A DNA stretch of 25,755 nucleotides. It comes from Prevotella sp. CAG:755. Lineage in GTDB: Bacteria; Bacteroidota; Bacteroidia; Bacteroidales; Bacteroidaceae. The stretch is taken from the NCBI GenBank assembly GCA_000431275.1, contig HF989186.1, positions 23,746-49,500 of the forward strand. The letters are read 5' to 3'. The translations under genes were made by a program, and so were the position numbers. Shown piece by piece: positions 6,332 to 20,889 of this stretch. Each line of letters begins with the position of its first letter. Position 1 is the stretch's first letter. A model generated the notes under the pieces. That model was not told where the DNA came from, did no database searches, and saw only the letters and a list, made by a program, of their open reading frames with translations.

Positions 6332-6362
6332 CAAAAATAGTGAAAGGCGGGCGCTAAAACAA
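6332..6362 (-). promoter_or_regulatory. Promoter of the lipoprotein/ATP-grasp/HD operon
   Basis: On the minus strand TATTTTTG (6339 to 6332) matches TAnnTTTG, and TTG of a -33 box (6362 to 6360, in the context CTCTTG) lies exactly 20 bp upstream. The expected transcript would have a leader of about 45 bases before the ATG at 6281. The -33 region and spacer resemble those of the prmC promoter. Confidence 0.6.
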
Positions 6363-6410
6363 GAGAAAGCAGCCTTTCTTCCTGCCCTGGCAGGACAGCC
6401 TTGCCCCTCT
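6351..6410. repeat. 21-bp-period intergenic repeat (locus F, two units)
   Basis: Two adjacent 21-bp units, 6369-6389 and 6390-6410, lie between the divergent lipoprotein operon and nagA. They are preceded by the segment CAAGAGAAAGC, which recurs at locus E (18135-18145). The units are diverged from the consensus but line up with locus E in the same 21-bp phase. CCTGCC/GGCAGG at 6381-6394 forms a small dyad. The remainder of the 233-bp intergenic region holds the two promoters. Confidence 0.5.
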
Positions 6411-6468
6411 CGTGAACAAAAATACGCAGAAAGCCGCTGACTGTCACCCCTCTTCCATAAAAAAAACG

Positions 6469-6476
6469 TACATTTG
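6469..6476 (+). promoter_or_regulatory. -7 promoter box for nagA
   Basis: TACATTTG matches TAnnTTTG and follows a run of A residues. It lies 38 bases before the nagA ATG. No clear -33 TTG is present 20 bp upstream. Confidence 0.55.
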
Positions 6477-6514
6477 CGCTAAGAACGACTAACTCTCTAA
6501 TACATCAAACGCTT

Positions 6515-7675
6515 ATGCTGACACAAATCATCAACGGGCGTATCCTGACCCCCGAAGGCTGGTTGGACGGAGGTTCCGTCCTGATCGACGGTAACCAGAT
6601 CGTCAATGTCATCAACACCGACCTGCCCATCGAAGGCGCCCAGCGTATCGACGCAAAAGGCTGTGCCGTAGTGCCCGGCGGCATCGAAATGCACGTGCAC
6701 GGCGGTGGCGGACGCGACTTCATGGAAGGCACGGAAGAGGCTTTCCGCGTAGCTATCGACGCACACTTGCAAAACGGAACAACAGCCATCTTCCCCACCC
6801 TGTCCTCGTCGACCGTACCGATGATCGAAGCCGCAGTCAAGACCTGCGACAAGCTCATGGCCGAGCCCGACAGCCCGGTGATGGGGCTTCACCTTGAAGG
6901 CCCCTACTTCAACCCCGCGCAGGCCGGCGCCCAAATTCCCGAGTGGATCAAGCCGCCCGTAGCCTCGGAATACGAACCCCTGCTCGAAAACTCGAAATGC
7001 CTTCGCCGATGGGACGAGGCCCCCGAGCTCCCAGGCTCGATCGAGTTCATCAAGTGCTGCCGCAAGCACGGCGTGCTCCCCGCCATTGCCCACACCCGCG
7101 CCACCTACGACGACGTGCACGCCGCCCATGAGGCCGGCATGACCCACGCTACCCACTTCTACAACGCCATGCCCGTGGTCTACAAAAACCGTGAGTTCAA
7201 AGTTTGCGGAACCGTCGAGAGCATCTTCGCCGAAAAGGACATGACCGTCGAGATGATTGCCGACGGCATCCATGTGCCCCCCGTGATGCTCCGGATGATA
7301 TACCAGATCAAAGGCGTTGAGCGGACTGCCCTCATCACCGACGCCCTCGCCTGCTCAGCCAGCAAGGGGAACACCGCTTTCGACCCCCGCGTCATCCTCG
7401 AAGACGGCGTCTGCAAACTGGCCGACCGCTCGGCCTTGGCCGGAAGTATCGCCACGATGGACCGCCTCGTCCGCACCTGCGTCCAGCAGGCCGGTATCCC
7501 CTTGGCCGACGCCTGCCGCATGGCCTCGGAAACCCCGGCACGCATCATGGGCATACTCGACCGCAAAGGCACCTTGGAGGCCGGAAAAGATGCCGACATC
7601 ATCATGTTCGACGACAACCTCGACCTGCGTTTCGTCATGCAGATGGGGCGCACTGTCCGCAACGAGCTGGCCTGA
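6515..7675 (+). CDS. nagA: N-acetylglucosamine-6-phosphate deacetylase
   Basis: Cytosolic amidohydrolase that removes acetate from GlcNAc-6-phosphate, giving glucosamine-6-phosphate for glycolysis or cell-wall precursor recycling. The 386-residue length is typical. Visible active-site elements are the HVHG pair (H60/H62), the metal ligand E128 in HLEGPY, H193 in IAHT, H214 in THATHFYNAM and the catalytic D276 in TDAL. The start follows a TACATTTG promoter and no alternative upstream ATG competes. The gene stands alone, with its own promoter and a strong terminator; no nagB or sugar transporter is adjacent, so it probably serves general amino-sugar recycling. I see no substitutions of key residues. 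Confidence 0.95.
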   Translation: MLTQIINGRILTPEGWLDGGSVLIDGNQIVNVINTDLPIEGAQRIDAKGCAVVPGGIEMHVHGGGGRDFMEGTEEAFRVAIDAHLQNGTTAIFPTLSSSTVPMIEAAVKTCDKLMAEPDSPVMGLHLEGPYFNPAQAGAQIPEWIKPPVASEYEPLLENSKCLRRWDEAPELPGSIEFIKCCRKHGVLPAIAHTRATYDDVHAAHEAGMTHATHFYNAMPVVYKNREFKVCGTVESIFAEKDMTVEMIADGIHVPPVMLRMIYQIKGVERTALITDALACSASKGNTAFDPRVILEDGVCKLADRSALAGSIATMDRLVRTCVQQAGIPLADACRMASETPARIMGILDRKGTLEAGKDADIIMFDDNLDLRFVMQMGRTVRNELA

Positions 7676-7699
7676 CCCACAGCATCAGCCATTTCCACA

Positions 7700-7737
7700 A
7701 AAGCCGTCCCGCCCGACCCGCTGGGACGGCTTTCTTC
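7700..7737 (+). terminator. Rho-independent terminator of nagA
   Basis: The perfect stem AAAGCCGTCCC (7700-7710) pairs with GGGACGGCTTT (7723-7733) around a 12-base loop. It is followed by the short pyrimidine tail CTTC and lies 25 bases after the nagA stop. Confidence 0.85.
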
Positions 7738-7824
7738 ATGTCCGGCGGGCTGAAAAAAATTAAAAAAGCGAAACAATTTGCAAAACCGCCCGCACGCCGC
7801 GCGCAGCATTCCGGAAAAACGCCG

Positions 7825-7832
7825 TAACTTTG
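7825..7832 (+). promoter_or_regulatory. -7 promoter box for the marR gene
   Basis: TAACTTTG is an exact match to TAnnTTTG, 26 bases before the ATG at 7859. The sequence just upstream is A-rich (GGAAAAACG), as at the hisS and crcB promoters. There is no obvious -33 box. Confidence 0.6.
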
Positions 7833-7858
7833 CCCACGCTGCCAGAACCGCAACACCT

Positions 7859-8314
7859 ATGGAACTTCTCGATATAGACATCCGCTTGATTTTCGCCATC
7901 ATGAACGGCAAAGTGTCGTCGGCCATCAACCGGAAGTTACAGAAAAACTTCAACGCCGCCGACGTCAACCTCACTCCCGAGCAGTGGACTGTCATGCTCT
8001 ACCTTTCGGAGCAAGACGGCGTCACACAGCAACAGCTCTGCAACGCAGTCTATAAAGACAAGCCCTCGATGACACGGCTCATCGACATCCTCGAACGTGC
8101 GGACGTCGTTGTGCGGCAAACCAACAAGCTCGACCGCCGCGCCAACACCGTACACCTCACCCCGCACGGTCGCGAAATGAAAGACAAAGCCCAGAAAATA
8201 GCCCTCGTCACCTTGCGCGAAGCCTTAAAAGGCCTCACCATGGACGATCTCCGCACTTGTCAGAGCGTCATGCGCTGCGTCTTCGAAAACCTCACCGCCG
8301 ACGGCCGCCGCTAA
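7859..8314 (+). CDS. MarR-family transcriptional regulator
   Basis: A 151-residue winged-helix DNA-binding protein that should act as a dimer. The MarR fold is recognisable from [23 protein letters not shown] (split by the helix break near residue 53), the recognition helix around [12 protein letters not shown] (about 78-89), and the wing [13 protein letters not shown] (about 99-111). The start at 7859 is favoured because the promoter box lies between it and the upstream in-frame codon at 7778. It is not beside an efflux or stress gene, being flanked by terminated nagA and by hisS with its own promoter, so its target cannot be read from context. Many MarR proteins repress their own promoter, but no clear palindromic operator is visible here. 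Confidence 0.9.
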
Positions 8315-8354
8315 TCCCCCTTCACCTCTTTCTTCCTCACGGGCAGAACTCCCA

Positions 8355-8459
8355 GCCACTCCTCCCGACTTTCCAGCCGCAGCGAGAGCGTTTTCTGTCA
8401 CTGCGACAGGAAACACTGTCAGCCGTCACGTTTTTCCAGCCAGCCATCCCGTCCGAAAA
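8355..8459. repeat. 21-bp-period intergenic array (locus A, five units)
   Basis: Five consecutive 21-bp units begin at 8355, 8376, 8397, 8418 and 8439. Units 3 and 4 are closest to the family consensus (GTCA...GACAGG and GTCAGCC...TTCCA). GACAG (8405-8409) and CTGTC (8416-8420) form a dyad with a 6-base gap. The array lies in the 305-bp gap between marR and hisS. The rest of that gap shows only the hisS promoter; I see no convincing gene in it. Confidence 0.7.
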
Positions 8460-8579
8460 AACAAGGTCCACATCACGTACCAATGGCCGGAACAGCCTCC
8501 GGACGTTGCAGCAGGGATTATTTTCTCACTTTCTATGCCCTCGCGGCCTGCCTCGAAGCAAAGCGTCGGAAAAAAATCG

Positions 8580-8587
8580 TAACTTTA
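8580..8587 (+). promoter_or_regulatory. -7 promoter box for hisS-metG
   Basis: TAACTTTA is a one-base variant of TAnnTTTG, preceded by GGAAAAAAATCG. It lies 32 bases before the hisS ATG and downstream of repeat array A, so transcription from here would not include the array. Confidence 0.5.
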
Positions 8588-8619
8588 CGGCCGCTAACGA
8601 AACCTTAACCCCTACGACA

Positions 8620-9984
8620 ATGGCTCAAAAACCCAGCATACCGAAAGGCACGCGCGACTTCTCGCCAGCCGAGATGGCCAAACGCAATTACATCTTCGGC
8701 ACGATCCGCGACGTCTATGCTCTCTATGGTTTCCGTCCCATCGAGACGCCGGCCATGGAGAACCTCTCAACGCTCATGGGCAAGTACGGCGAAGAGGGCG
8801 ACAAACTGCTCTTCAAGATCCTCAACTCGGGCGACTTCACCCATGGCCTGACCACTGATGACTTCGGTGCAGGGAACGCCGCCCGGCTGGCTGCCCGCAT
8901 CTGTGAGAAAGGCTTGCGCTACGACCTGACGGTGCCTTTCGCACGCTATGTGGTGCAACACCGCGACGAGTTGCAACTCCCCTTCAAACGATACCAGATA
9001 CAGCCCGTCTGGCGGGCCGACCGGCCGCAGCGCGGACGCTACCGCGAGTTCTATCAATGCGACGCCGACATCGTCGGGTCGGACTCGCTCCTGAACGAAG
9101 TGGAACTCGTGCAGATTGTCGACACGGTGTTCACACGCCTGGGCATCCGCGTAGCCATCAAAATAAACAACCGCAAGATCCTCAGCGGCATCGCCGAGGT
9201 CATCGGCGCGCCTGAGAAAATCACCGACATCACCGTGGCCATCGACAAGCTCGACAAGATCGGCCTCGACGGCGTCAACGCCGAACTGGCCCGTGCCGGA
9301 CTCACGCCCGAAGCCATCGCAAAAATCCAGCCAATCATCGCGCTCACAGGCACGAACGACGAAAAGCTCGCCAGCATCCGCAACGTCCTCGCCGGCAGCG
9401 AGGCGGGGCTCAAAGGAGCCGACGAAGTGGACTACGTGCTCACAGCGGCCGGCACACTTGCCCTCCACAACCGCGTGGAACTGGATCTGACCCTGGCGCG
9501 CGGCCTGAACTACTACACGGGATGCATCTTCGAGGTGAAAGCCCTCGACGTCGAAATCGGCTCCATCACCGGCGGTGGACGCTATGACAACCTGACGGGC
9601 ATCTTCGGCCTGCCGGGATTGAGCGGCGTGGGCATCTCGTTCGGTGCCGACCGCATCTACGACGTCCTTAACCAGCTCGACCTATACCCTCAGGGCACTA
9701 CGGCGGGCGCCGAACTGCTCTTCATCAACTTCGGACCGGCCGAAGCGGCATACTGCCTGCGTCTGGCCGCACAGACGCGCGCGGCAGGAATAGCGACCGA
9801 AGTCTACCCCGACACGGCCAAAATGAAGAAACAGATGAGCTACGCCAACGCCACTGGCGTCAGGTTCGTAGCCCTCGTGGGCGAAGACGAGATGACGCAG
9901 GGCAAAGTGACACTCAAAAACATGGCTACGGGCGAACAACGCCTCGTCAGTCCCGAGGAAATCGCCGCCGTCGTCCGCGCCTGA
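8620..9984 (+). CDS. hisS: Histidyl-tRNA synthetase
   Basis: Class II aminoacyl-tRNA synthetase charging tRNA-His in the cytosol; 454 residues. The start ATG at 8620 opens with [14 protein letters not shown], a typical HisRS N-terminus; the frame is open further upstream to 8257 but that stretch is the repeat array and promoter. Visible signatures include motif 1 around [31 protein letters not shown], motif 2 in the region [19 protein letters not shown], the histidine-specific RGLNYYTG with R294, and motif 3 in [15 protein letters not shown]-terminal anticodon-binding domain follows from about residue 360. metG follows after 36 bases with no TAnnTTTG box between, which suggests co-transcription of two translation genes. 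Confidence 0.97.
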
Positions 9985-10020
9985 CCCTCACCGACAGCAA
10001 AAACACATATAATATATAGC

Positions 10021-12060
10021 ATGGAAAAAGACTTCAAGCGCACGCTCGTCACCGCCGCCCTGCCATATGCCAACGGCGGTGTACACATCGGGCATCTGGC
10101 CGGCGTTTACGTCCCGGCCGACATCTATGTGCGCTACCTCAGACTGAAACACCGGGACGTGCTCTTCGTCTGCGGCTCGGACGAGCACGGCGTCCCCATC
10201 ACCCTGCTGGCCAAGAAGAAAGGCTGCTCGCCGCAAGACATCGTCGACCGCTATCACGCCCTCATCCGCGACAGTTTCAAGGAGTTCGGTATCTCGTTCG
10301 ACGTCTTCGGACGCACCACCTCCGAGGTGCACCGCCAGACGGCGTCCGACTTCTTCCGTACACTCTATGACAAGGGCGAATTCGTCGAAAAGGAAAGCGA
10401 ACAATACTATGACGAAGAGGCTCACACTTTCCTGGCCGACCGCTACATCACGGGCGAATGCCCGCATTGCCACGCCCAAGGTGCTTATGGCGACCAGTGC
10501 GAGAAATGCGGCACAGCCCTCTCCCCGCTCGAGCTTATCAACCCGCAGAGCGCCATCAGCGGCTCCAAGCCCGTCCTGCGCAAGACAAAGCACTGGTACC
10601 TGCCCCTCGACAAACACCAGCAGTGGCTCGAACCGTGGATCACGGAGCAACACAAAGAATGGCGGTCGAACGTGATGGGACAATGCAAGAGCTGGTTCGA
10701 CATGGGGCTGCAACCGCGCGCCGTCAGCCGCGACCTCGACTGGGGCATCCCCGTGCCCGTCGAAGGCGCTGAGGGCAAGGTGCTTTACGTATGGTTTGAC
10801 GCGCCTATCGGTTATATATCAAACACGAAAGAACTGCTGCCCGACACATGGGAGACGTGGTGGAAAGACTCCTCAACCCGCCTGATTCACTTTATCGGAA
10901 AGGACAACATCGTGTTCCACTGCATCGTCTTCCCGTCCATGCTCCGCGCCGAGGGCAGCTACATCCTGCCCGACAACGTCCCGGCCAACGAGTTTCTGAA
11001 CTTGGAGGACAAGAAAATCTCGACATCGCGCAACAGGGCCGTCTGGCTCCACGAGTATCTTGAAGAATTGCCCGGCAAGCAGGACGTCCTGCGCTATGTG
11101 CTCACGGCCAACGCCCCCGAGACAAAGGACAACAACTTCACATGGCGCGACTTCCAAGCCCGCAACAACAATGAACTCGTTGCCGTCTACGGCAACTTCG
11201 TCAACCGCGCCCTCGTGCTGACACAGAAATACTACGACGGCGAGGTGCCCGCCGCCGGCGAGCTGACCGACTACGACCGCGACACCATCCGCGAATTCAC
11301 CGACGTGAAGGCACAAGTGGAGCGCCTGCTCGAAAACTTCCGTTTCCGCGACGCACAAAAGGAAGCCATGAACCTCGCCCGCATCGGCAACAAGTACCTG
11401 GCCGACAGCGAGCCGTGGAAACTCATCAAGACGGACGCCGAACGTGTCAAGACGATACTCAACCTTTCGGTGCAACTCGTGGCCAACCTGGCCATCGCCT
11501 TCGAGCCCTTCCTGCCGTTCAGCAGCCAGCGCCTGCGCAGCATGCTCAACGTAGGCGAACTCGAATGGGACCGTCTCGGCGCCACCGACCTCATCGCCGC
11601 CGGGCACCACATCGGGAAGCCCGAGCTGCTCTTCGAAAAGATTGACGACGAAGTCATCGACTTCCAGATGAAAAAATTGGAGGAAGCCGAGCGGAAGAAT
11701 GCCGAAGCCAATTATCACGCCAACCCCGTGAAAGCCGACATTGCCTTCGAGGATTTCGAGAAGCTCGACATCCGTGTCGGCACAGTGCTCGAATGCGAGC
11801 GCGTGCCCAAAGCCGACAAGCTCCTGCGCTTCGTCATCGCCGACGGACTGGAAAACCGCACCATCGTGAGCGGCATCGCCAAGCACTATAAGCCGGAGGA
11901 TCTCGTCGGAAAGCAGATCTGCTTCATCGCCAACCTGCCTCCGCGCAAACTGCGCGGCATCGAAAGCCAAGGCATGATACTGAGCGCCGAAAACTTCGAC
12001 GGCTCGCTCAGCGTCATCACGACGCTCAGCGAAGTCAAACCCGGCAGCGAGGTGAAATAA
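10021..12060 (+). CDS. metG: Methionyl-tRNA synthetase
   Basis: Class I synthetase charging both initiator and elongator tRNA-Met; 679 residues. The HIGH motif is HIGH at 22-25 and the KMSKS-equivalent is KISTS at 332-336. The connective domain has one zinc knuckle with C147-x2-C150 and C160-x2-C163. The C-terminal part from about residue 577 ([20 protein letters not shown]) is the EMAP-II/Trbp-like tRNA-binding and dimerisation domain, fused as in many bacterial MetRS. The start at 10021 follows an AT-rich spacer after hisS with no clear Shine-Dalgarno, normal for Bacteroidota. It converges on the lysine exporter genes, with a large hairpin terminator between. Confidence 0.97.
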
Positions 12061-12096
12061 GCCGCCACACGCCGTCCGCCCGGGCGGCCGACATAC

Positions 12097-12147
12097 AGCT
12101 ACGGTGCATCCCGAGGGGGAACTCCCCTTTCAGGATGCACCGTAGCT
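12097..12147. terminator. Bidirectional hairpin terminator between metG and lysO
   Basis: The perfect 15-bp stem AGCTACGGTGCATCC (12097-12111) pairs with GGATGCACCGTAGCT (12133-12147). The 21-base loop itself contains a GGGG/CCCC inner stem. It sits between convergent genes, 36 bases from each. The T-tract is weak on both strands (TTTGTT on plus), so it may act as a transcript 3'-end stabiliser as much as a terminator. Confidence 0.8.
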
Positions 12148-12182
12148 TTGTTCATACCCAAGAAACGACCTCTCGGCAGGCC

Positions 12183-12779
12183 TCATCCGGCAAACAGCGT
12201 AACGAGAAAGAATACCGACGCATCGGCCACGAAGCCGTGATAGACGGCCAGCGGGGCATACTCGCGGCCTGCATAGCGCGTGCAGACAGGCAGGGCCGTG
12301 TCCATCGACGTCGCCCCAGCCACGGCAATGGGCGCCAGCCGCCCGAACCACCGCGCCCACAGCGGCGCCACCAGCAGGGCCAGCAGCTCGCGCACGATGT
12401 TGGTCATCAGGGCCAGCGTCCCCAACTCCGCCCCGCGATACTCTGTCAAGAGAATGCTCGACAACGAATAGTAGCCCATGCCCGACCCTGCGGCGCACCA
12501 GTCCGCCGTCGTCCAGCGTCCAAATGCCGACAAGACGAGGCTGCCCGCTGTCGTGCCCGCAATGGTGGCCAGCGGCAAGAGCGCCAGGCGCGGATTGAGC
12601 CTTACCGCCCGGCCCAAAGCCGAAGGGTCGCGCCCGAGGCCGAACGCCACGCAGAACATCAGCAGGCACAGCGCCGCCGTGCTCAAATGTCCCCCGACCA
12701 GCCAAAGGGGCAAGACGTCAAGCCGGCCACACAGCACACCGGCCACGAAGAAGGCCACAGCGATGAGACTACCCCTCAT
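12183..12779 (-). CDS. lysO: Lysine exporter LysO, C-terminal part (Lys_export/DUF340)
   Basis: Inner-membrane protein of 198 residues with about six hydrophobic segments, matching the C-terminal two thirds of LysO (YbjE), which exports L-lysine. Recognisable LysO signatures are GSGMGYYSLSSILLTEY, LALMTNIVRELLALLVAP and GATSMDTALPV. The frame is open from a GTG at 12785, but AGGAGG (12791 to 12786) abuts that codon and stands 6 bases before the ATG at 12779, so the ATG is the better start. It overlaps the N-terminal gene by 11 bases in another frame, a coupled arrangement rather than a random frameshift. Together the two products should form one transporter. Confidence 0.85.
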   Translation of the reverse strand: MRGSLIAVAFFVAGVLCGRLDVLPLWLVGGHLSTAALCLLMFCVAFGLGRDPSALGRAVRLNPRLALLPLATIAGTTAGSLVLSAFGRWTTADWCAAGSGMGYYSLSSILLTEYRGAELGTLALMTNIVRELLALLVAPLWARWFGRLAPIAVAGATSMDTALPVCTRYAGREYAPLAVYHGFVADASVFFLVTLFAG

Positions 12780-13053
12780 GGCCACCTCCTTTCCGCCGCT
12801 CGGCCCAACGCATCACGCCCCAGGCCGCCAGCGCACTGCCCACAGCAGTCGTCAGCGCCAAAGCCACGGCCCAGCCGCCCAGCCGCGGAAGGGCCGCCAC
12901 GATGGCCTCGTCGGCGCCCACCTCAGCCCCCAGCAAAAAGAGCAACAGCCACACCAGCGGCCCCGTGAGCCCGTCGAGCGAAAGCCGCCCGCGCCGCAGC
13001 ACCCATCCCGCCCCGAAGCCGAGGCACATCGTAGTCAAAATCAGCATCCACAT
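12769..13053 (-). CDS. Lysine exporter LysO, N-terminal part
   Basis: A 94-residue membrane protein with three hydrophobic segments (about 1-18, 27-44 and 55-80) and LLLFLLGAEVG, like the N-terminal region of full-length LysO. The start at 13053 is chosen because the -7 box TATCTTTG ends only 8 bases upstream; the in-frame extension to 13080 would run through the promoter. The transcript may be nearly leaderless. The last codons contain the Shine-Dalgarno and start of the downstream half, so translation of the two parts is probably coupled. From my knowledge of Bacteroidota this split form is usual there and is not a local mutation, but I cannot verify that here. Confidence 0.8.
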   Translation of the reverse strand: MWMLILTTMCLGFGAGWVLRRGRLSLDGLTGPLVWLLLFLLGAEVGADEAIVAALPRLGGWAVALALTTAVGSALAAWGVMRWAERRKGGGHEG

Positions 13054-13061
13054 AGCGGCTG

Positions 13062-13069
13062 CAAAGATA
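13062..13069 (-). promoter_or_regulatory. -7 promoter box for split lysO
   Basis: Minus-strand TATCTTTG, preceded by GGATTTTCG. Only 8 bases separate it from the ATG at 13053, so the predicted transcription start falls within a few bases of the start codon. No -33 TTG at the expected place. Confidence 0.55.
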
Positions 13070-13112
13070 CGAAAATCCACACTACACGCCGACAGGCGCC
13101 TACATCCCGCCC

Positions 13113-13217
13113 ATAGCCAGCTTGGATTTTCAAACCTCCCTGCGGGAATTTACAGCATGCCTGACAGAATTATCTGTCAGGGCGACAGAAATTCCTGTCG
13201 CCTTGGCCGTTCCACCC
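13113..13217. repeat. 21-bp-period intergenic array (locus B, five units) with twin palindromes
   Basis: Units begin at 13113, 13134, 13155, 13176 and 13197 in the 375-bp gap between divergent lysO and secDF. Two near-consensus units generate palindromes: CCTGACAG-AATTAT-CTGTCAGG (13160-13181) and GGCGACAG-AAATTC-CTGTCGCC (13181-13202), sharing one G. The remaining gap (13218-13370) shows no gene or clear signal apart from the secDF promoter at its end. Confidence 0.75.
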
Positions 13218-13370
13218 ATCCGCGCTCCTACAAAATGCAGCGAAGACGGAGGCTATCCTCCATAACGCCGTAGACGTCAAAAAGCCGCGCCACACAACCA
13301 CAGTCCCGCGCCCGACGTCGCAAACGCCCGAAAATAAGCCACAAAGACAGTGCAAAACCGAAAAAATGCC

Positions 13371-13378
13371 TATATTTG
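13371..13378 (+). promoter_or_regulatory. -7 promoter box for secDF
   Basis: TATATTTG matches TAnnTTTG and lies 50 bases before the secDF ATG. The leader is strongly A-rich (AAAAACAAATTAAACATAAA), which in Bacteroidota can replace a Shine-Dalgarno sequence. Confidence 0.6.
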
Positions 13379-13428: not shown

Positions 13429-16400
13429 ATGCAAAACAAAGGATTTGTAAAGGTAATCGCAGTCGCCTTGACGCTGGTCTGCCTTTTCTACCTGTCGTTC
13501 TCCGCAGTGACGCATCACTATGAGAAAAAGGCAGCTGAGATGGGACCGGCCGGACAGGCCTACCTCGATTCGATGAAGAACGAGCGCGTATGGCTCGGCG
13601 TCTACACCCTGAAACGCTGTCAGGAACTCCAAATCAGCCTTGGCCTTGACCTTCAAGGAGGAATGAACGTCATCCTCGAGGTGTCGGTACCCGACGTGAT
13701 CAAGTCGCTGGCTGGCGAGAACGCGGCCGACCCGACGTTCCAGAAAGCTTTGGCCCAAGCGCAAAAGCAAGCCAACGAGAGTACGGGCGACGTCATCGAG
13801 CTTTTCGTCAAGAACTATCAGCAGCTTAGCGGTATGAATCACTTGGGCGGCGTCTTCACCGCCCGCCTCCGCAGTGAGGGCATCACGCCCAACAGCACCG
13901 ACGCCGACGTGCAGCGCGTACTGACTGACGAGGTGAAAGCTGCCGTGGGCAACTCTTACGAAGTGCTCCGCACACGTATCGACCGTTTCGGCGTAGCCCA
14001 GCCCAACATCCAGACCCTTGAAGGCAAGGGCCAGCTCGGCCAGATTATGGTCGAGATGCCGGGTATCAAGGAACCGGAGCGCGTACGTAAGCTCCTGCAA
14101 GGTAGCGCGAACCTCGAATTCTGGGAAACGTATAACGCCGGCGAAATCAGCGCAGCGTTGGCCACCCTCGACAACCGCCTGGCACAAACCGACAAGGCCG
14201 CAAGCGACACTACTGCCACGGCCGTCGCTGCCACCGACACAGTGAAAGCCGCCGCCGACACCGCCAAGACCAGCGCCGAGCCGAGCCTGGCTGCCTTCAA
14301 GAAAGACGCGGACAAGAAAGCCGACGCCGCTGCCAACAAGGAGTTAGAGGCATTCAAGGCCCAGCACCCGCTCTTCGGCGTACTGCTGCAAGACGTGGTC
14401 AGCCCGCAGAACTGCGTCATCGGTATTGCCCAGGCCCGCGACACAGCTGCTGTCAACCGCATGTTGCAATCCGAACTGGCCCGAGACATCCTGCCGGCCG
14501 ACTTGCGCACATACTGGGGCGTGAAAGCCTCCGACATGATCAAAGGCGATTACTACGAGCTCTATGCCCTCAAAGCCACTGACGGAAAAGCCGCCATGGC
14601 CGGCGACATGGTCGAAGGCGCCCGCGACGACTACGACGAATTCCACCGTCCCTGCGTCTCAATGACCATGAACACCGAAGGCGCCCGCGAATGGGCCGTC
14701 CTGACGCGCAACAACATCAAGCGCTGCGTCGCTATCGTGCTCGACGGTTACGTGTACAGCGCCCCGACCGTCCAGAACGAAATCTCAGGCGGCGTATCAT
14801 CCATCACAGGTAACTTCACCACCGAAGACACCAAGGACTTGGCCAACGTGCTGCGAAGCGGTAAGATGCCAGCCCCGGCAAAGATCGTGCAAGAAGAGAT
14901 GGTCGGCCCCTCGCTCGGTGCTGCCTCCATCCAAGCCGGTTTCACGGCATGCGTCGTCGCTTTCGTCGCCTTGATGGTATTCATGTGCGTTTACTACGGC
15001 TTCATCCCAGGCATGGTCGCCAACGGCGCACTCATCCTCAACTTCTTCTTTACCTTCGGCGTGCTGACCTCGTTCCAGGCCGCTCTGACCATGTCAGGCA
15101 TCGCCGGTATGGTTTTGTCGCTCGGTATGGCAGTCGACGCCAATGTGCTCATCTATGAACGCACCAAGGAGGAGTTGCGCGCCGGAAAGAACATCAAGCA
15201 AGCCTTGGCCGACGGTTACGGCAACGCGTTCTCGGCGATTTTCGACTCCAACCTTACGTCCATCATCACGGCCGTTATCCTATTCTACTTCGGTACAGGT
15301 CCCATCCGAGGCTTTGCTACGACTCTGATCATCGGTATCTGCGCCTCGTTCTTCACCGCCGTATGGATGACGCGCATCGTCTACGAGCACTTCATGAACA
15401 AAGACAAGTGGCTGAACTTGAAGTTCAACACGAAACTCTCTCGTGGCTTCCTCGAAAACACGAATGTGCAGTTCATGACGTTCTACCGCCGTTCGTTCAC
15501 CATCTTCGCTGTCTTCCTCGCCGTCTGCCTTGTCTCGCTCGGCGTGCGCGGCCTGTCGAAAGGCATCGACTTCACTGGCGGCCGCAACTTCGTCGTACAA
15601 TTCGAGCAGCAAGTGACGCCCGAAGAAGTCAGCAGCGCCATCGCCGACAAGGTGCACGCCGTTGACCCTGAGGCCAACGTATCGGCTCTCGCCCTCGGCA
15701 CGGACGGACGCACCGTCCGCCTGACCACGAACTACCGCATCGAGGACAACGCCGACGGTATCGACGAGCAGGTAGAGCACTTCATCTACGAAGGCCTGAA
15801 AGAGCACAATCTGATCAAGGCGGACTATGCCACGTTCATCGACCGCGACAACCACAAGGGCGGTTCGATTATCTCGTCGCAGAAGGTCGGCCCCTCGGTC
15901 GCTGAGGACATGACACGCGGCGCCATCGTCAGCGTCATCCTCTCGCTCGTAGCCATATTCCTCTACATCCTCATCCGATTCCGCAATGTGGCGTTCTCTG
16001 TGGGTTGCGTCATCTCGCTGACAGTCGACACGCTCATCATCATCGGTATCTACTCACTCTGCTGGGGATGGATGCCGTTCTCCCTCGAAGTCGACCAGAC
16101 GTTCATCGGCGCCGTCCTGACGGCCATCGGTTACTCCATCAACGACAAAGTCGTCGTCTTCGACCGTATCCGCGAATACCTCGGACTCTATCCCAACCGC
16201 GAACGTCGCCGCTTGTTCAACGACTCGCTGAACCACACGCTCTCGCGTACCATCATGACATCGGGCACCACACTGCTCGTGCTGCTCTGCATCCTCTTCC
16301 TCGGAGGCGACAGTGTACGCTCGTTCTCGTTCGCTATGATCCTCGGTGTAATCTTCGGAACACTTTCGTCCATATTCCTGGCCGCACCGATTGCCTACCT

Positions 16401-16452
16401 GACACTCAGCAAACGCGAACGCAAAGAAGGAAAGGCCGTAGCCACGGCTTAA
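13429..16452 (+). CDS. secDF: Fused protein translocase subunit SecDF
   Basis: Inner-membrane accessory of SecYEG that uses proton motive force to pull secreted proteins across; SecD and SecF are fused, as is common in Bacteroidota, giving 1007 residues. SecD features: an N-terminal membrane segment, GLDLQGGMNVILEV, RIDRFGVAQPNIQ, GNFTTEDTKDLANVLRSG and the membrane motif SLGMAVDANVLIYERTKEEL. SecF features: GIDFTGGRNFVVQF, SSQKVGPSVAEDM and AIGYSINDKVVVFDRIREYL. Twelve membrane segments are expected. An Ala/Thr/Asp/Lys-rich low-complexity insertion lies at about residues 251-304 in the periplasmic part of SecD. The gene is monocistronic, with its own TATATTTG promoter and a GC-rich hairpin after it. 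Confidence 0.97.
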   Translation: MQNKGFVKVIAVALTLVCLFYLSFSAVTHHYEKKAAEMGPAGQAYLDSMKNERVWLGVYTLKRCQELQISLGLDLQGGMNVILEVSVPDVIKSLAGENAADPTFQKALAQAQKQANESTGDVIELFVKNYQQLSGMNHLGGVFTARLRSEGITPNSTDADVQRVLTDEVKAAVGNSYEVLRTRIDRFGVAQPNIQTLEGKGQLGQIMVEMPGIKEPERVRKLLQGSANLEFWETYNAGEISAALATLDNRLAQTDKAASDTTATAVAATDTVKAAADTAKTSAEPSLAAFKKDADKKADAAANKELEAFKAQHPLFGVLLQDVVSPQNCVIGIAQARDTAAVNRMLQSELARDILPADLRTYWGVKASDMIKGDYYELYALKATDGKAAMAGDMVEGARDDYDEFHRPCVSMTMNTEGAREWAVLTRNNIKRCVAIVLDGYVYSAPTVQNEISGGVSSITGNFTTEDTKDLANVLRSGKMPAPAKIVQEEMVGPSLGAASIQAGFTACVVAFVALMVFMCVYYGFIPGMVANGALILNFFFTFGVLTSFQAALTMSGIAGMVLSLGMAVDANVLIYERTKEELRAGKNIKQALADGYGNAFSAIFDSNLTSIITAVILFYFGTGPIRGFATTLIIGICASFFTAVWMTRIVYEHFMNKDKWLNLKFNTKLSRGFLENTNVQFMTFYRRSFTIFAVFLAVCLVSLGVRGLSKGIDFTGGRNFVVQFEQQVTPEEVSSAIADKVHAVDPEANVSALALGTDGRTVRLTTNYRIEDNADGIDEQVEHFIYEGLKEHNLIKADYATFIDRDNHKGGSIISSQKVGPSVAEDMTRGAIVSVILSLVAIFLYILIRFRNVAFSVGCVISLTVDTLIIIGIYSLCWGWMPFSLEVDQTFIGAVLTAIGYSINDKVVVFDRIREYLGLYPNRERRRLFNDSLNHTLSRTIMTSGTTLLVLLCILFLGGDSVRSFSFAMILGVIFGTLSSIFLAAPIAYLTLSKRERKEGKAVATA

Positions 16453-16474
16453 CCGAACGCCGCGATTCGCAAAC

Positions 16475-16517
16475 ATACGCAGGGGCGCCCCGTTATGAGG
16501 GCGCCCCTGCGGCGTAT
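16475..16517 (+). terminator. Hairpin terminator after secDF
   Basis: A perfect 13-bp stem CGCAGGGGCGCCC (16478-16490) and GGGCGCCCCTGCG (16499-16511) encloses an 8-base loop. Outer ATA/TAT bases extend it with one bulge. There is no T-tract, so termination strength is uncertain. Confidence 0.75.
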
Positions 16518-16539
16518 TAAGAGTACCGGAAGAAAGACT

Positions 16540-16644
16540 GCCGGCTGGTTAGAAAAAGCCGTCGCAGCGACAGGAAATCCAGTCAGCCATCCAGAATCTT
16601 CCGTCAGCCATCCCGCCAAGATGGTCAGCCGGCCTGTTTTTCCA
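16540..16644. repeat. 21-bp-period intergenic array (locus C, five units)
   Basis: The clearest array of the family. Units start at 16540, 16561, 16582, 16603 and 16624. Three successive units open with GTCAGCC and the register is perfect. It lies in the 312-bp gap between convergent secDF and recX, downstream of the secDF hairpin. The segment 16645-16736 holds nothing I can identify. Confidence 0.8.
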
Positions 16645-16736
16645 ATCGGAAAGTATAGAAAAACTACACCGACGACGGGAGGGACTACCGGCAACGACTG
16701 ACAGAAGAAATACGGATACAAGAAAACAGAGAAGGT

Positions 16737-16764
16737 CGTACGGATAACGGTGACGGCCCGTACG
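16737..16764 (-). terminator. Possible terminator of prmC-recX
   Basis: CGTACGG (16737-16743) pairs with CCGTACG (16758-16764) directly after the recX stop. On the minus strand the stem is followed within a few bases by the pyrimidine-rich CTTCTCTGTTTTC. The stem is only 7 bp, so this is tentative. Confidence 0.4.
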
Positions 16765-17235
16765 TCAATCGTCTCCGACAAGGCGGTCGACCGCCTTGAC
16801 CGCCCGTTCAGGCTCAAAGCCACGCGAAACTGCGAAACGCAGCAGCTTCATCCGCCGCTCATAGTCATTGACAGCCCGGACGGTACGCAGTTTCGAAGCC
16901 AGCAGGGCGTCGAGGCCGGCACCATAGGCGTCATCGTCCACCGCGGCCAGGGCTTCGCAGACTGCCTCGTCGCCGATACCCTTCAAACGCAGTGCCTGAC
17001 GCACCTTATGGCGGCCCCAATGGTTATACGTCACCTTGTCGTGCACGAAAGCGGCGGCATAGCGGTGCTCGTCGATGTAACGCTCCCGTTCAAGGCGGTC
17101 GAGGAGGGCATCAGCGGCGTCCGGCGCAAGACCACGTGCCAGCAGCTTCGGCCGCAAGTCGGCCCGGCAGAGCTCGGCACGGGCACAGCGCCCCGTGGCA
17201 TAGCGATATGCAGCTTCAGGAGTAAAGTCGTTCAT
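16765..17235 (-). CDS. recX: Regulatory protein RecX
   Basis: Small helical regulator that binds and inhibits RecA filaments, limiting recombination and the SOS response; 156 residues, usual for the family. Three-helix RecX repeats are seen in the family motifs RADLRPKLLARG, LLDRLERERYIDEHRYAAAFV, and GRHKVRQALRLKGIGDEAV. The ATG overlaps the prmC stop in an ATGA junction, so recX is translated by coupling from the prmC transcript. recA is not in the window. No truncation or unusual residue is apparent. Confidence 0.9.
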   Translation of the reverse strand: MNDFTPEAAYRYATGRCARAELCRADLRPKLLARGLAPDAADALLDRLERERYIDEHRYAAAFVHDKVTYNHWGRHKVRQALRLKGIGDEAVCEALAAVDDDAYGAGLDALLASKLRTVRAVNDYERRMKLLRFAVSRGFEPERAVKAVDRLVGDD

Positions 17236-18101
17236 TGTTTCAAACTGGGGTTTGAAGGCAGGACAGCACGAAGCATGCGCGTCCGCCCGAACTGGTCGCG
17301 GCGCAGTTCGACAGGATCGTAGCCTGCCCTGCGGAACACCCCGGCGGTTTCTTCGCCGAGCGCTTCATTCAGCTCCACGTAGATGCGGCCCAGCGGACGC
17401 AGGCACTGCCGGCCCAAACGGGCCAGCGCATGGTAGAAACGAAGCGCATCATCGTCGGGCACGAAAAGGGCCAACGCCGGCTCACGCCCGACGACATGGG
17501 CTTCCATTGCCGTCCGCTCTGACTCACGCACGTAGGGGGGGTTGCTCGCCACGACGTCAAAACCTTCTGCCACACACGGCGGGCTGAGCAAATCAGCCCG
17601 AACGAATTTCACTGCGGCGTCCAGCCGGGCAGCATTGCGCCGCGCCACAGCGAGAGCCTCAGGCGAAACATCCCACGCCTCAACTTCGGTACCGGGCAAG
17701 TCGAGGGCAAGGGTGATGGCAATGCAACCGCTCCCCGTGCCACCGTCAAGCAGGCGGCTGCCCGGCGCGAGTCCGTCTGCCTCCACCCAAGCCACGAGTT
17801 CTTCGGTCTCGGGCCGGGGAATGAGCACCGCCGGCTCCACCTCGAACGTCCGCCCGGCAAAGCGCGCCGTGCCCAAAACATACTGCACGGGCTCGCCGGC
17901 TTCAAGGCGCTCCAAGATCCGTGCGAGGTGTTGCCGCTCGTCTGCCGAAAATTGCCTAACTTTGCCTGCATACACATCGACAGGCCGAAGGCCGAACGCG
18001 TCGTCGAGCACCACGCGCACAATGGCGCGAGCCTCACGCTCATCGTAAAGCGGGACAAGCCGCCGCCAGAGCGTGGAAAGCGTATGAGCATCTGTGTCCA
18101 T
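17232..18101 (-). CDS. prmC: Peptide chain release factor N5-glutamine methyltransferase
   Basis: S-adenosylmethionine-dependent enzyme that methylates the GGQ glutamine of release factors RF1 and RF2; 289 residues. The N-terminal helical domain contains GEPVQYVLGTARFAGR. The Rossmann methyltransferase domain has LIPRPETEELVAWV, the SAM-binding LLDGGTGSGCIAITLAL and the substrate motif NPPY at 187-190. The ATG at 18101 is preferred although the frame is open to 18407, because a TACCTTTG box ends 5 bases before it. The mRNA is therefore probably leaderless or nearly so. recX follows with a 4-base overlap. Confidence 0.93.
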   Translation of the reverse strand: MDTDAHTLSTLWRRLVPLYDEREARAIVRVVLDDAFGLRPVDVYAGKVRQFSADERQHLARILERLEAGEPVQYVLGTARFAGRTFEVEPAVLIPRPETEELVAWVEADGLAPGSRLLDGGTGSGCIAITLALDLPGTEVEAWDVSPEALAVARRNAARLDAAVKFVRADLLSPPCVAEGFDVVASNPPYVRESERTAMEAHVVGREPALALFVPDDDALRFYHALARLGRQCLRPLGRIYVELNEALGEETAGVFRRAGYDPVELRRDQFGRTRMLRAVLPSNPSLKQ

Positions 18102-18106
18102 GCGTG

Positions 18107-18137
18107 CAAAGGTAGCGAAAGGCGTGAGCCGGAGCAA
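18107..18137 (-). promoter_or_regulatory. Promoter of prmC-recX, likely leaderless
   Basis: Minus-strand TACCTTTG (18114 to 18107) with -33 TTG (18137 to 18135, context CTCTTG) exactly 20 bp upstream. Only 5 bases separate the box from the prmC ATG, so transcription should start at or beside the start codon. The -33 region and part of the spacer (CGCCTTTC) are shared with the promoter at 6332-6362. Confidence 0.65.
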
Positions 18138-18185
18138 GAGAAAGCCAGCTTTCTTCTTGGGCTGGTCAGGACGCACGCACTTCCA
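18123..18185. repeat. 21-bp-period intergenic repeat (locus E, three units)
   Basis: Units at 18123-18143, 18144-18164 and 18165-18185 lie between prmC (-) and the small + strand ORF. CCAGC (18145-18149) and GCTGG (18160-18164) form a dyad. The first unit contains the -33 box of the prmC promoter. The third unit (GTCAGGACG...CTTCCA) fits the family consensus best. Confidence 0.55.
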
Positions 18186-18215
18186 CCCATCCGCCGTAAT
18201 CAAAATCCGACCGCA

Positions 18216-18416
18216 ATGAAACACATCCGAACTGCCCTTCTCTATCTTCTCAGCCTGCTCGCACTGATGGCTTGCGGCATAATCGTGATGAAACTCTTGG
18301 ACGCCGCCTTCACACTCGACCTCGACGGCCGCGCCGGAAGCCTCGGCGCCCGCTGCGGTCTCGTGGCGTGGCTGCTGATGACAGTCATCTCCATAAGACG
18401 CAGACATCGCAAATAA
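18216..18416 (+). CDS. Possible small two-helix membrane protein
   Basis: A 66-residue reading frame with two hydrophobic stretches, TALLYLLSLLALMACGIIVM (about 7-26) and CGLVAWLLMTVISI (about 48-61), ending in the basic tail RRRHRK. I do not recognise a family. In favour of a real gene are the membrane-protein-like composition, a plausible ATG after A-rich ATCAAAATCCG, and its fit between prmC and ribD with 47 bases to the ribD start. Against it are the absence of a clear promoter or Shine-Dalgarno and the ease with which GC-rich DNA yields open frames. Part of the larger open frame upstream, from 17928, is antisense to prmC and is not coding. Confidence 0.45.
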   Translation: MKHIRTALLYLLSLLALMACGIIVMKLLDAAFTLDLDGRAGSLGARCGLVAWLLMTVISIRRRHRK

Positions 18417-18463
18417 GCCGGCCGGCGACGTGCATTTATTATATTACCCCAAAAATGACAGCC

Positions 18464-19456
18464 ATGAACGACAAGAACTCGGACGAGAGATGGATGCGGC
18501 GCTGCCTCGACCTTGCGCGCTGCGGACGCTACGGCGCGCCGCCCAATCCCATGGTCGGTGCGGTCATCGTCTGCGACGGGCGCATCATCGGCGAAGGTTA
18601 TCACCGCCGTTGCGGCGAGGCGCACGCCGAAGTCAATGCCGTCAACTCCGTGCGACCGTCCGACCGGCCGCTGCTCCGCCACAGCACGATCTATGTCAGC
18701 CTCGAACCCTGTGCCCACTTCGGCCGGACGCCGCCCTGCGCCGAACTCATCGCCCGCCTCGGCATCCCGCACGTCGTCGTGGGATGCGTCGACCCCTTCG
18801 CCCGCGTCCAAGGGCGCGGCATCGCCATGCTGCGCGAGGCGGGCTGCGACGTGACCGTCGGCGTGCTCGACGCGGAATGCCGCGAGCTGAACCGCCGCTT
18901 CTTCGTCTTCCACACACACCACCGTCCCTACATCACGCTGAAATGGGCGCAGAGCTCCGACGGATTCATCGACCGCCAGCGCAGCGGCGGGATGCCCGCG
19001 CGCCTTTCGTCGCCCCGCTCGCTGATGGAGGTCCACCGCCTGCGGGCTCAACATGGCGCCATCCTCGTTGGCCATTCTACGCTGCGCCTCGACCATCCCC
19101 GACTCGACGTGCGTTGCTGGCCGGGCGCCTCGCCGCGCCGGCTGGTGCTGGGCCATGTCAGCCCCGACGAGCTCCCCGGAGGCTTCGAAGCATTCGCCGA
19201 CCGCAGCGAGCTGCTCGACACGCTCTACCGCGACGGCGTGCAGTCGCTCCTTGTCGAAGGCGGCGCGCAGACGCTGGCTTCCTTCCTGGCCGATGGCGTG
19301 TGGGACGAAGCCCGCGTCGAAGTGACCGGCACGGCATTGGGCGACGGCGTGGCTGCCCCCGTCGTTCCGTGCGGCCATCCCGTCCACACGGAACGTCATT
19401 TCGGCTCGCTCATCCTGCACTACCGCAATAAAGCGGCGGCGGACTTGGACGAATGA
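18464..19456 (+). CDS. ribD: Bifunctional riboflavin biosynthesis deaminase/reductase RibD
   Basis: Carries out two successive cytosolic steps of riboflavin synthesis: deamination of the diaminopyrimidine intermediate, then reduction of its ribosyl chain with NADPH. The 330-residue protein has an N-terminal cytidine-deaminase-like zinc domain with H54 and E56 in HAEVNAV, C83 in EPCAHFGRTPPC and C92. The C-terminal reductase domain starts near FITLKWAQSSDGF-like sequence (ITLKWAQSSDGFI) with LVEGG near the end. An ATG at 18455 (three residues longer, MTA) is equally possible. The longer frame to 18272 overlaps the small ORF and is not needed. No flavin-mononucleotide riboswitch is recognisable in the short upstream region, and other rib genes are not adjacent. 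Confidence 0.95.
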   Translation: MNDKNSDERWMRRCLDLARCGRYGAPPNPMVGAVIVCDGRIIGEGYHRRCGEAHAEVNAVNSVRPSDRPLLRHSTIYVSLEPCAHFGRTPPCAELIARLGIPHVVVGCVDPFARVQGRGIAMLREAGCDVTVGVLDAECRELNRRFFVFHTHHRPYITLKWAQSSDGFIDRQRSGGMPARLSSPRSLMEVHRLRAQHGAILVGHSTLRLDHPRLDVRCWPGASPRRLVLGHVSPDELPGGFEAFADRSELLDTLYRDGVQSLLVEGGAQTLASFLADGVWDEARVEVTGTALGDGVAAPVVPCGHPVHTERHFGSLILHYRNKAAADLDE

Positions 19457-19475
19457 GCGCTTTTTCTTACTTTTG
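19445..19475 (+). promoter_or_regulatory. Promoter of hflX
   Basis: TACTTTTG at 19468-19475 matches TAnnTTTG, with TTG at 19445-19447 exactly 20 bp upstream. The -33 element lies within the last codons of ribD. The hflX leader would be about 20 bases. Confidence 0.6.
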
Positions 19476-19501
19476 TTCCCCTACGACAGAAAGAACGAAC
19501 G

Positions 19502-20755
19502 ATGAAAGAATTTGTACTCTCAGAAGCGCAGACCGAAACCGCCGTACTGGTAGCCCTCATCACTCGTACACAAGACGAGCGCAAGACGAACGAATACCTC
19601 GACGAGTTGGCTTTCCTGGCTGAGACAGCCGGCGCCCGCACCGTCAAGCGCTTCACCCAGCGACTCGACCAGCCCCTTGCAGCCACCTATGTAGGCAAAG
19701 GGAAACTCGACGAAATACGCCAGTACATCGAAGAGGAGGAAGAAGCCGACCGCGAAGTCGGCATGGTCATCTTCGACGACGAGCTGAGCGCCAAACAGCT
19801 GCGCAACATCGAACGGGAACTGAAAGTAAAAATCCTCGACCGCACCTCGCTCATCCTCGACATATTCGCCATGCGCGCGCAGACGGCGAATGCCAAAACG
19901 CAAGTAGAACTGGCACAATACAAATATATGCTGCCGCGGCTGCAACGGCTTTGGACACACCTCGAACGCCAGGGCGGCGGTTCGGGTTCGGGAGGCGGAA
20001 AGGGCTCCGTCGGACTGCGCGGACCGGGCGAAACGCAGCTCGAGATGGACCGCCGTATCATCCTGAACCGAATGGCGCTGCTCAAACAGCGCTTGGCTGA
20101 CATCGACCGCCAAAAAGCGACGCAACGCAAGAACCGCGGACGCCTCATCCGTGTAGCACTCGTAGGATACACGAACGTCGGGAAATCGACGCTCATCAAC
20201 CTGCTGGCCAAGAGCGACGTATTTGCCGAGAACAAGCTCTTTGCGACGCTCGACACCACCGTGCGGAAAGTAATCATCGGCAACCTGCCCTTCCTGCTCA
20301 GCGATACGGTCGGATTTATCCGCAAAATCCCGACCGATCTTGTCGACTCGTTCAAAAGCACGCTCGACGAAGTGCGCGAGGCTGACCTGCTGCTGCACGT
20401 CGTAGACCTTTCTCACCCTGATTTCGAAGAACAGATAGACGTGGTCAACCGTACGCTGGCCGACCTTGGCTGTGCGGAAAAGCCGGTCATCATAGTGTTC
20501 AACAAGATAGACGCTTACACGTGGACGGAGAAAGCGGCGGACGACCTCACGCCTGCCACGAAAGAGAACATTTCCTTGGAAGAACTTCAACGTACATGGA
20601 TGGCGAAGATGGGCGAAGGCTGTATCTTTATCTCTGCCCGCCAGCGCGAAAACATCGAAGCGCTGAAAGACCTGCTCTATCGCCGCGTGCGTGAACTCCA
20701 CGTACAGAAGTACCCCTACAACGACTTCCTTTTCGACACCTACGAGGAGGCCTGA
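19502..20755 (+). CDS. hflX: GTPase HflX
   Basis: Ribosome-associated GTPase that in other bacteria splits stalled or heat-damaged 70S ribosomes and hibernating ribosomes. The 417-residue protein has the N-terminal HflX domain (about 1-180, with YVGKGKLDEI and the glycine-rich linker ending GLRGPGETQLEMDRR), followed by a G domain: G1 GYTNVGKST at 222-230, G3 DTVG at 268-271, G4 NKID at 334-337 and G5 ISAR near 378. A short C-terminal tail follows. It has its own promoter, overlapping the ribD 3' end, and a strong terminator after it. Confidence 0.96.
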   Translation: MKEFVLSEAQTETAVLVALITRTQDERKTNEYLDELAFLAETAGARTVKRFTQRLDQPLAATYVGKGKLDEIRQYIEEEEEADREVGMVIFDDELSAKQLRNIERELKVKILDRTSLILDIFAMRAQTANAKTQVELAQYKYMLPRLQRLWTHLERQGGGSGSGGGKGSVGLRGPGETQLEMDRRIILNRMALLKQRLADIDRQKATQRKNRGRLIRVALVGYTNVGKSTLINLLAKSDVFAENKLFATLDTTVRKVIIGNLPFLLSDTVGFIRKIPTDLVDSFKSTLDEVREADLLLHVVDLSHPDFEEQIDVVNRTLADLGCAEKPVIIVFNKIDAYTWTEKAADDLTPATKENISLEELQRTWMAKMGEGCIFISARQRENIEALKDLLYRRVRELHVQKYPYNDFLFDTYEEA

Positions 20756-20777
20756 CCCGCCCCTCGCCCCGACCGAG

Positions 20778-20824
20778 ACGCCGGACGCCGCGACTGGATT
20801 TCTCCTCGCGGCGTCCGGCGTTTT
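20778..20824 (+). terminator. Rho-independent terminator of hflX
   Basis: The perfect stem ACGCCGGACGCCGCGA (20778-20793) pairs with TCGCGGCGTCCGGCGT (20806-20821) around a 12-base loop, followed by TTT. It lies 22 bases after the hflX stop and may also serve the convergent sbcC. Confidence 0.9.
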
Positions 20825-20826
20825 CT

Positions 20827-20889
20827 GTCGGCCGACCTGTAAATCCTGGCAGCCGTCCCGCAAACCCTGTCAGCCGACTTGCAGTTCAC
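20827..20889. repeat. 21-bp-period intergenic array (locus D, three units)
   Basis: Units at 20827-20847, 20848-20868 and 20869-20889, opening GTCGGCC, GGCAGCC and GTCAGCC, lie directly after the hflX terminator T-run and before the sbcC stop. The remaining 38 bases up to sbcC hold nothing recognisable. Confidence 0.7.

Follow-up and report, generated by a model that had tools for sequence, protein, structure and literature searches.

The stretch of DNA analysed here (25,755 nt from Prevotella sp. CAG:755, GenBank assembly GCA_000431275.1, contig HF989186.1, positions 23,746–49,500 of the forward strand; referred to as the window) belongs to Candidatus Caccomonas and carries, between its genes, arrays of a 21 bp repeat that are the subject of this report. 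Relatives were collected by a protein scan for SecDF, which is encoded in the window, and the best 80 loci were kept. The top locus (L001) is from Candidatus Caccomonas pullistercoris (genome G001, 2.2 Mb); it is syntenic with the window, with 98% protein identity in SecDF, and the nucleotide identity between the window and G001 is 87–90%. Genes were called with our own codon-usage caller and checked by eye on the window, where the gene at 12183–13080 was called only in part. A weight matrix for the 21 bp unit was trained on G001 stretches and the window and was applied at a score of at least 9 for units in the window and at a score of 10 for enrichment. The window contains four arrays.

8334..8459, no strand assigned: array of five to six 21 bp slots in the co-directional gap between a marR-like gene and hisS
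13092..13217, no strand assigned: array with five to six slots, some of them reversed, in the divergent gap upstream of secDF
16540..16644, plus strand: five-slot array in the gap between the convergent secDF and recX-like genes
20806..20889, plus strand: array of three to four slots in the convergent gap between hflX-like and sbcC-like genes

Eight units reach a score of at least 9 in the window, every one of them within the 8355, 13113, 16540 or 20827 regions. An earlier note on this DNA had listed six regions with 21 bp units. Four of these (8355–8459, 13113–13217, 16540–16644 and 20827–20889) are upheld by the matrix and by arrays in the matching gaps of G001, whereas 6351–6410 and 18123–18185 contain no unit of score 9 or above and belong to another dispersed repeat, described below.

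All four arrays lie in the same gaps in G001 and three of them differ there by one 21 bp unit. The homologue of the 13092 array (one reverse-strand matrix match in the window) has exactly one unit more, that of the 16540 array (three matches at 21 bp spacing) exactly one unit fewer and that of the 20806 array (three matches at 21 bp spacing) exactly one unit more. The remaining array, with a single matrix match at slot 8418, aligns slot for slot with its counterpart on G001 contig C125 (five slots each from 8355 onwards, no indel); slot 8397 of the window is of a palindromic CTGTC-n5-GACAG type, to which slot 8376 also belongs in G001. Between the window and G001 the arrays show 91 substitutions and two small indels and the flanks 138 and 16, respectively (Fisher p = 0.02), and both array indels sit in leading, degenerate slots. 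As judged by eye, the arrays in the convergent gaps come after intrinsic-terminator-like hairpins of hflX (20770–20830) and secDF (16475–16520), and the 20806 array begins at the T-run of such a hairpin. Rfam 15, at the gathering score, gave no match in the window, and in six array-bearing loci its only matches were two tRNAs.

A dispersed family on a 21 bp lattice

The sample of G001 comprised 40 stretches (630 kb); with the window added it amounts to 656 kb, the set that underlies the counts of spacing, matrix matches, lattice, dyad symmetry, orientation, in-gene copies and frame given below. Contigs C1–C15 were chosen by number and C122, C158 and further contigs from matches to the 21 bp pattern, so that densities in this sample are inflated. 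The pattern count itself spans the entire genome: GTCAGCCNTCCNGNNNNTNCNGTC, with up to two mismatches, has 331 matches in G001 and its reversed control has none. The same pattern remains at background in each of 150 other sampled genomes of the family (0–8 matches, control 0–7) and of 20 other sampled genomes of the genus (0–4 matches). At a score of 10 the matrix finds 263 matches in the 656 kb, compared with 15 in Markov sequence of equal size, and these divide into 228 in 112 kb of noncoding DNA and 35 in 544 kb of coding DNA, which bears out the dispersed, intergenically enriched family proposed in the earlier note. The strict 21 bp period proposed with it also holds: pairs of GTCAGCC less than 250 bp apart number 72 at lag 21, 38 at lag 42 and 18 at lag 63, far above chance, with at most one pair at any other lag.

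The unit consists of a 15 bp imperfect palindrome and a 6 bp spacer, with the consensus CTGTCAGCCGTCCCGTAATTT. The slots are of several types, namely CTGTCAGCCGTCCCG and its reverse, the palindromic CTGTC-n5-GACAG forms and GTCAGTTATTTAG. Slot centres within 135 bp of one another are in register (21, 42, 63 or 84 bp) in 237 of 243 pairs, 182 of them same-strand and 55 opposite-strand; the six off-register pairs are separated by 22, 43, 64 and 85 bp (same strand) and by 25 and 33 bp (opposite strand). The units had been described as head-to-tail, but both orientations occur and share one lattice. The 120 clusters comprise 36 single units and 84 groups of two to five scored units, and a profile anchored on the core displays the lattice from about slot −4 to slot +3, with background reached by slots 5–6. 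Dyad symmetry (mean Watson–Crick fraction over seven pairs; baseline 0.26) peaks at the mid-spacer position −10.5 (0.50), is 0.41–0.48 at slot centres −2 to +2 and 0.37–0.42 at the other mid-spacers, and is also high off the lattice, at centres −4 and −0.5 inside the anchored unit (0.47). Among slots outside the main type, this symmetry persists at slots −2 to +2 (2.8–3.4 of seven pairs, versus 1.7–1.8 in shifted controls) and is marginal at slots 3–4 (1.9–2.1 versus 1.7–1.9).

Among G001 gaps of at least 60 bp, arrays are present in 40 of 176 co-directional, 19 of 53 convergent and 24 of 49 divergent gaps, with densities of 0.76, 1.09 and 1.06 per kb, respectively; 37 clusters, in called genes or at edges, were assigned to no gap. 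Array ends lie within 100 bp of a start codon in 10 cases, versus about 24 expected, and stop codons are not avoided (34 versus about 34). In co-directional gaps the orientation of the units is neutral (49 same, 50 opposite). The view that the arrays are not simply terminators agrees with this distribution.

In-frame copies within genes

The scored units of the window all lie outside genes, in line with the earlier note; genome-wide this does not hold, since 27 of the 120 clusters are mostly in called genes (seven of the 84 multi-unit clusters and 20 single units, many of them weak and several strong). Nor is the repeat purged from genes, as the alternative reading in the earlier note had it: in-frame arrays are found in ispG, fucosyltransferase and wbqC-family genes, among others. 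Translation of ten such genes gave heptads such as GRLTENP, VSRPENP and AVTENP.

Homologues of three of the proteins were sought among the 8000, 7998 and 8000 top word-sharing candidates, which were scored and of which the best 120 each were considered; 10, 11 and 12 rows were aligned. The fucosyltransferase has 324 residues in G001, 317 (98% identical) and 303 (87%) in two rows and 286–290 in the other eight, four of which have 289. The IspG loop has 44 residues in G001 and P0001, 23, 23 and 30 in P0002–P0004 and nine in six further rows (P0011 was not parsed and is outside these counts). In G001 the WbqC segment spans 174 residues, a length also found in four close rows; P0245, P0248 and P0252 have 139 and P0250 one residue fewer; P0246 and P0258, parsed from another anchor, were left out. 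Relative to 289, 9 and 139 residues, the excess is 35, 28 and 14 residues in the fucosyltransferase, 35, 21 and 14 in IspG and 35 in WbqC, all multiples of seven. All three proteins contain in-frame blocks of 7n residues without a counterpart in the more distant aligned homologues, and close relatives differ by whole heptads. At the loop of the Caccomonas insert, WbqC rows P0247 (+28) and P0249 (+21), from other species, have inserts of unrelated sequence.

Of the 12 clusters with a best score of at least 14 and a best unit located 30 bp or more inside a called gene, 11 are in lattice frame 0. Stops in the intergenic multi-unit arrays account for 21 and 13 of 2777 codons (two strands) in this frame, 23 and 25 of 2701 in frame 2 and 172 and 179 of 2704 in frame 1, with a noncoding rate of 0.029. 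Although two frames of the unit can be read through, only one is used in genes. This suggests that either the peptide is under selection or copies insert in phase with a seed resembling the unit.

Related arrays in other species and a second repeat

Tandem repeats in the 80 loci were profiled with a complexity filter (dinucleotide entropy of at least 3.2). Matches in 346 kb of noncoding DNA number 22 at lag 21, 67 at lag 22, 12 at lag 23 and 29 at lag 44, with 0–7 at the others, and in 39 of the 80 loci at least one match falls at lags 20–24. In the 1.22 Mb of coding DNA there is none at lag 22, and the five at lag 21 are comparable to lags 18 (five) and 24 (four). The period of 77 arrays in relatives is 22 bp in 55, 21 bp in 14 and 23 bp in eight; measured against shuffles, the consensus is palindromic at p<0.05 in 23 (3.9 expected) and at p<0.01 in nine. 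Genus mates of G001 at L002, L003, L010 and L075 each have different sequences with a period of 21–23 bp. At L002:19932–20061 one array changes its spacing along its length (23, 22, 21 bp) and contains TTGACAC..GTGTCAA palindromes. Three genomes, G276, G155 and G156, show the same design with other motifs, both orientations mostly on one 21 or 22 bp lattice; in the 22 bp family of G155, opposite-strand pairs fall 3 bp either side of the lattice, as is expected if the search word is off centre. Intergenic arrays of other Bacteroidaceae and Prevotellaceae genomes are built from unrelated, often palindromic motifs, and several unrelated motifs can occur within one genome. Long local arrays in G155 (six to 11 units, period 22; L240:5312, L241:10702, L241:10248 and L237:16154) appear non-palindromic by eye; if they truly are, their period needs an explanation other than a dimer site. 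Arrays in other Bacteroidaceae and Prevotellaceae, unlike those of G001, are concentrated in convergent gaps (0.51 per kb, versus 0.15 in co-directional and 0.08 in divergent gaps).

A peak at 21–23 bp was absent from 20 phylum-wide loci (one match in 67.7 kb of noncoding DNA), from 32.5 kb of E. coli noncoding DNA and from ten 20 kb stretches of P. vulgatus, the secDF locus of which (L013) has one; in ten stretches of B. xylanisolvens, eight tandem matches fall at lag 22. A conserved array site downstream of secDF in relatives was considered and rejected, since arrays are present in eight of 73 such gaps, which is no enrichment for gaps that make up 12% of gap bases in a set of 68 arrays. Phasing of AT and GC content (bending) was likewise set aside as weak (p<0.05 in 16 of 130 arrays).

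The two window regions outside the 21 bp family are members of a second dispersed repeat, D2.

6330..6410, minus strand: D2 member; no unit of score 9 or above; sequence kept in G001
18105..18185, minus strand: second D2 member; no unit of score 9 or above; further copies in G001

Positions 6330–6390 and 18105–18165 match over 61 bp at 75%. D2 is about 54–61 bp long, with TGCAAA.nTA at one end and a AAGAGAAAGC..CTTTCTTC hairpin. The member at 6330..6410 has the promoter-like end TGCAAAAATA followed by a AAGAGAAAGC..CTTTCTTCC hairpin, and the TGCAAAggTA end, which on the opposite strand resembles a −7 promoter element of Bacteroidota, precedes AAGAGAAAGC..GCTTTCTTCTTG. More copies in G001 are found in L108 (two), in L110 and L132 (one in common) and in L276.

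Origin and spread of the arrays

Our preferred reading, to which we assign a probability of roughly 0.6, is that the arrays are a species-specific palindromic insertion repeat that propagates by units, behaving much as Rickettsia palindromic elements (RPE) and REP sequences do. The earlier note had named a mobile or amplified repeat as its alternative, which, apart from the supposed purging from genes, fits best. The absence of in-frame consensus blocks from more distant homologues most probably means that family DNA enters new places; the change would then be one of gain and not of loss, and the repeat may be selfish in nature. Copies would enter intergenic DNA and also genes, the latter without breaking the frame because one unit equals seven nearly stop-free codons on either strand, and the arrays would afterwards gain and lose whole units. 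Spread could proceed by homology-directed copying, whether through template switching or through ectopic gene conversion, between an existing array and a unit-like target stretch. The 21n inserts, the changes by whole units, the fact that no protein-level duplication was seen and the lack of a Y1 match in G001 favor such copying guided by the unit itself, which would also explain why copies keep phase with the host sequence, why both orientations share a lattice and why no transposase is obvious. We tentatively regard it as the most probable means of spread, at less than even odds on its own.

Several observations weigh against the insertion repeat. We identified no mobilizing enzyme. The period of 21–23 bp common to unrelated motifs in relatives is left unexplained by it, as it is by a lattice of binding sites. 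Homologue P0126, which has no extra length, reads VAATGNP at the site, and several insert-free IspG homologues read RLDGS, near the RLTG of the unit; in two protein alignments viewed by eye these are suggestive only of unit-like seeds at insert-free sites. No clear in-gene copy of another species' family was found in the coding samples of G155, G156 and G276, an array of the G276 family (L003:11514) in a called frame running through masked Ns being uncounted. The scarcity of small indels in arrays relative to flanks hints at a constraint on spacing, and the stable array positions (four of four) at 87–90% identity indicate that movement is slow.

An alternative that we consider unlikely is that the slots are phased binding sites of a dimeric protein, either a nucleoid protein or a regulator, in which each dyad slot is a site, two helical turns keep the sites on one face and specificity turns over between species. 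The strict register in both orientations, the dyad symmetry of the slots, the scarcity of small indels, the paucity of array ends near start codons and the recurrence in G276, G155 and G156 of this architecture built from other motifs are all consistent with such sites, and for the intergenic copies a binding-site lattice is possible. However, units sit inside conserved enzyme genes, and the period in many relatives is 22 or 23 bp, which would drift off the face, with unrelated motifs; both points weaken the helical phasing for cooperative binding put forward in the earlier note, which we retain as a rival. Several unrelated motifs within one genome would, moreover, require several proteins, and there is no candidate protein.

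It is distinctly improbable that the arrays are ordinary minisatellites arising from a mutational process, peculiar to the clade, that duplicates stretches of about 22 bp without an element of its own, with the G001 family copied around by chance. Such a process would fit the dominance of 21–23 bp among the noncoding tandem repeats of relatives whatever their sequence, the exact repeats (20 of 20 bases), which at 39 noncoding matches include 11 at lag 22, seven at lag 44 and five at lag 66, and the long local arrays of G155 with their apparently non-palindromic units. It leaves unaccounted for the presence of a single dispersed motif at hundreds of sites and the mixed orientation on a single lattice, and the excess of palindromic consensus sequences and the lack of a 21 bp excess in the coding DNA of relatives also argue against it.

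Tandem RNA hairpins that end or stabilize transcripts are very unlikely. The preference of relatives' arrays for convergent gaps and the near-perfect palindromes of many of their units point in this direction, but G001 shows neither a convergent preference over divergent gaps nor a strand bias, its sense-strand G–U pairs do not exceed A–C (127 versus 168) and its commonest unit forms no hairpin; the 20806 array of the window, by eye, comes after a terminator-like hairpin and does not form one. In relatives, the sense strand has 41 G–T versus 32 A–C, and compensatory changes (10 double Watson–Crick versus five broken) were too few to support an RNA structure. Mobilization as REP/REPIN sequences by a RAYT (Y1 transposase), suggested by the palindromic, dispersed, mostly extragenic and clustered units, as in REPs and BIMEs, and by the first eight genomes, is the least credible of all, as PF01797 has no match in G001 (a draft genome, which could miss the gene) and, in a hand tally of 58 genomes including G001, is over the cut-off in 12 of 36 with locus arrays and in six of 22 without, which is no association.

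Known repeats offer partial parallels to the insertion repeat. RPE were reportedly described by Ogata et al. in 2000 and 2002. RPE are palindromic repeats with copies in frame in unrelated protein genes and outside genes (PMC10969869, PMC3733652) and a size of about 150 bp (PMC10969869). The likeness is that of a palindromic repeat in frame inside otherwise conserved genes, here in three proteins with 7n-residue blocks; by description, the present repeat differs in its 21 bp units, clusters of one to five scored units, 21n inserts, mostly intergenic location and other host organisms. GTAG- and CGTC-tagged REPs and BIMEs are described as short palindromes, often species-specific, dispersed and sometimes clustered or intragenic, the CGTC class apparently lacking a dedicated transposase and being reported from five phyla including Bacteroidetes (PMC3733652). 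The Caccomonas units share all of the former traits, but their consensus has no terminal GTAG tag, in the common unit CGTC is found within the core rather than at the end, palindromic slots such as GTCGCAGTGACAG lack it, the longest stem that we could read by eye in a slot is 5 bp rather than 8–9 bp, and a fixed 21 bp lattice with both orientations replaces the head–head dimers of REPs.

Porphyromonas gingivalis is also a member of the Bacteroidales. Its minisatellite-MITE BrickBuilt is intergenic, with 23 nt imperfect tandem units in strain-variable number (up to 22.8), and of its 19 elements 16 carry a leader, a tail or both; no BLASTn match outside the species is reported (PMC4596501). By description, both are intergenic tandem repeats. 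Unit number changes by whole units of 21 bp in the present family, against the 23 nt unit of BrickBuilt; the present family also differs in having hundreds of units, at most five scored per cluster, both orientations and in-frame gene copies. Shared leader or tail flanks were not found within 120 bp of clusters, where none of the 15 most enriched 7-mers occurs more than 12 times and the profile is at background by slots 5–6. PARCELs are coding tandem repeats with DNA-level dyad symmetry, thought to be mobile, the 25-residue units of which form a domain in ORFs without assigned functions (PMC2996958). The coding copies in Caccomonas are likewise tandem repeats with DNA-level dyad symmetry, but with units of seven residues, in enzymes, and with arrays that are mainly intergenic. 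The repeat works like RPE and intragenic REPs, yet each of the families tested has a defining feature that it lacks. Among the matches listed from the open-licence literature, we found no description of such arrays in Bacteroides, Prevotella or Caccomonas.

More speculatively, Bacteroidaceae and Prevotellaceae might share an undescribed system that makes and spreads palindromic intergenic arrays with a built-in, sequence-independent ruler of 21–23 bp. Each species would have its own motif families, of which the 21 bp families could also write heptapeptide inserts into proteins, and a common enzyme or replication-linked copying would set the unit length and turn over the sequence between congeneric species. 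The period of 21–23 bp with unrelated motifs points to a single process at work in gut bacteria of a common group. The copying of exact units into intergenic DNA and conserved enzyme genes makes the spread of palindromes without a transposase, as in RPE and CGTC REPs, testable by strain comparison, and the heptapeptide inserts may mislead gene callers and phylogenies.

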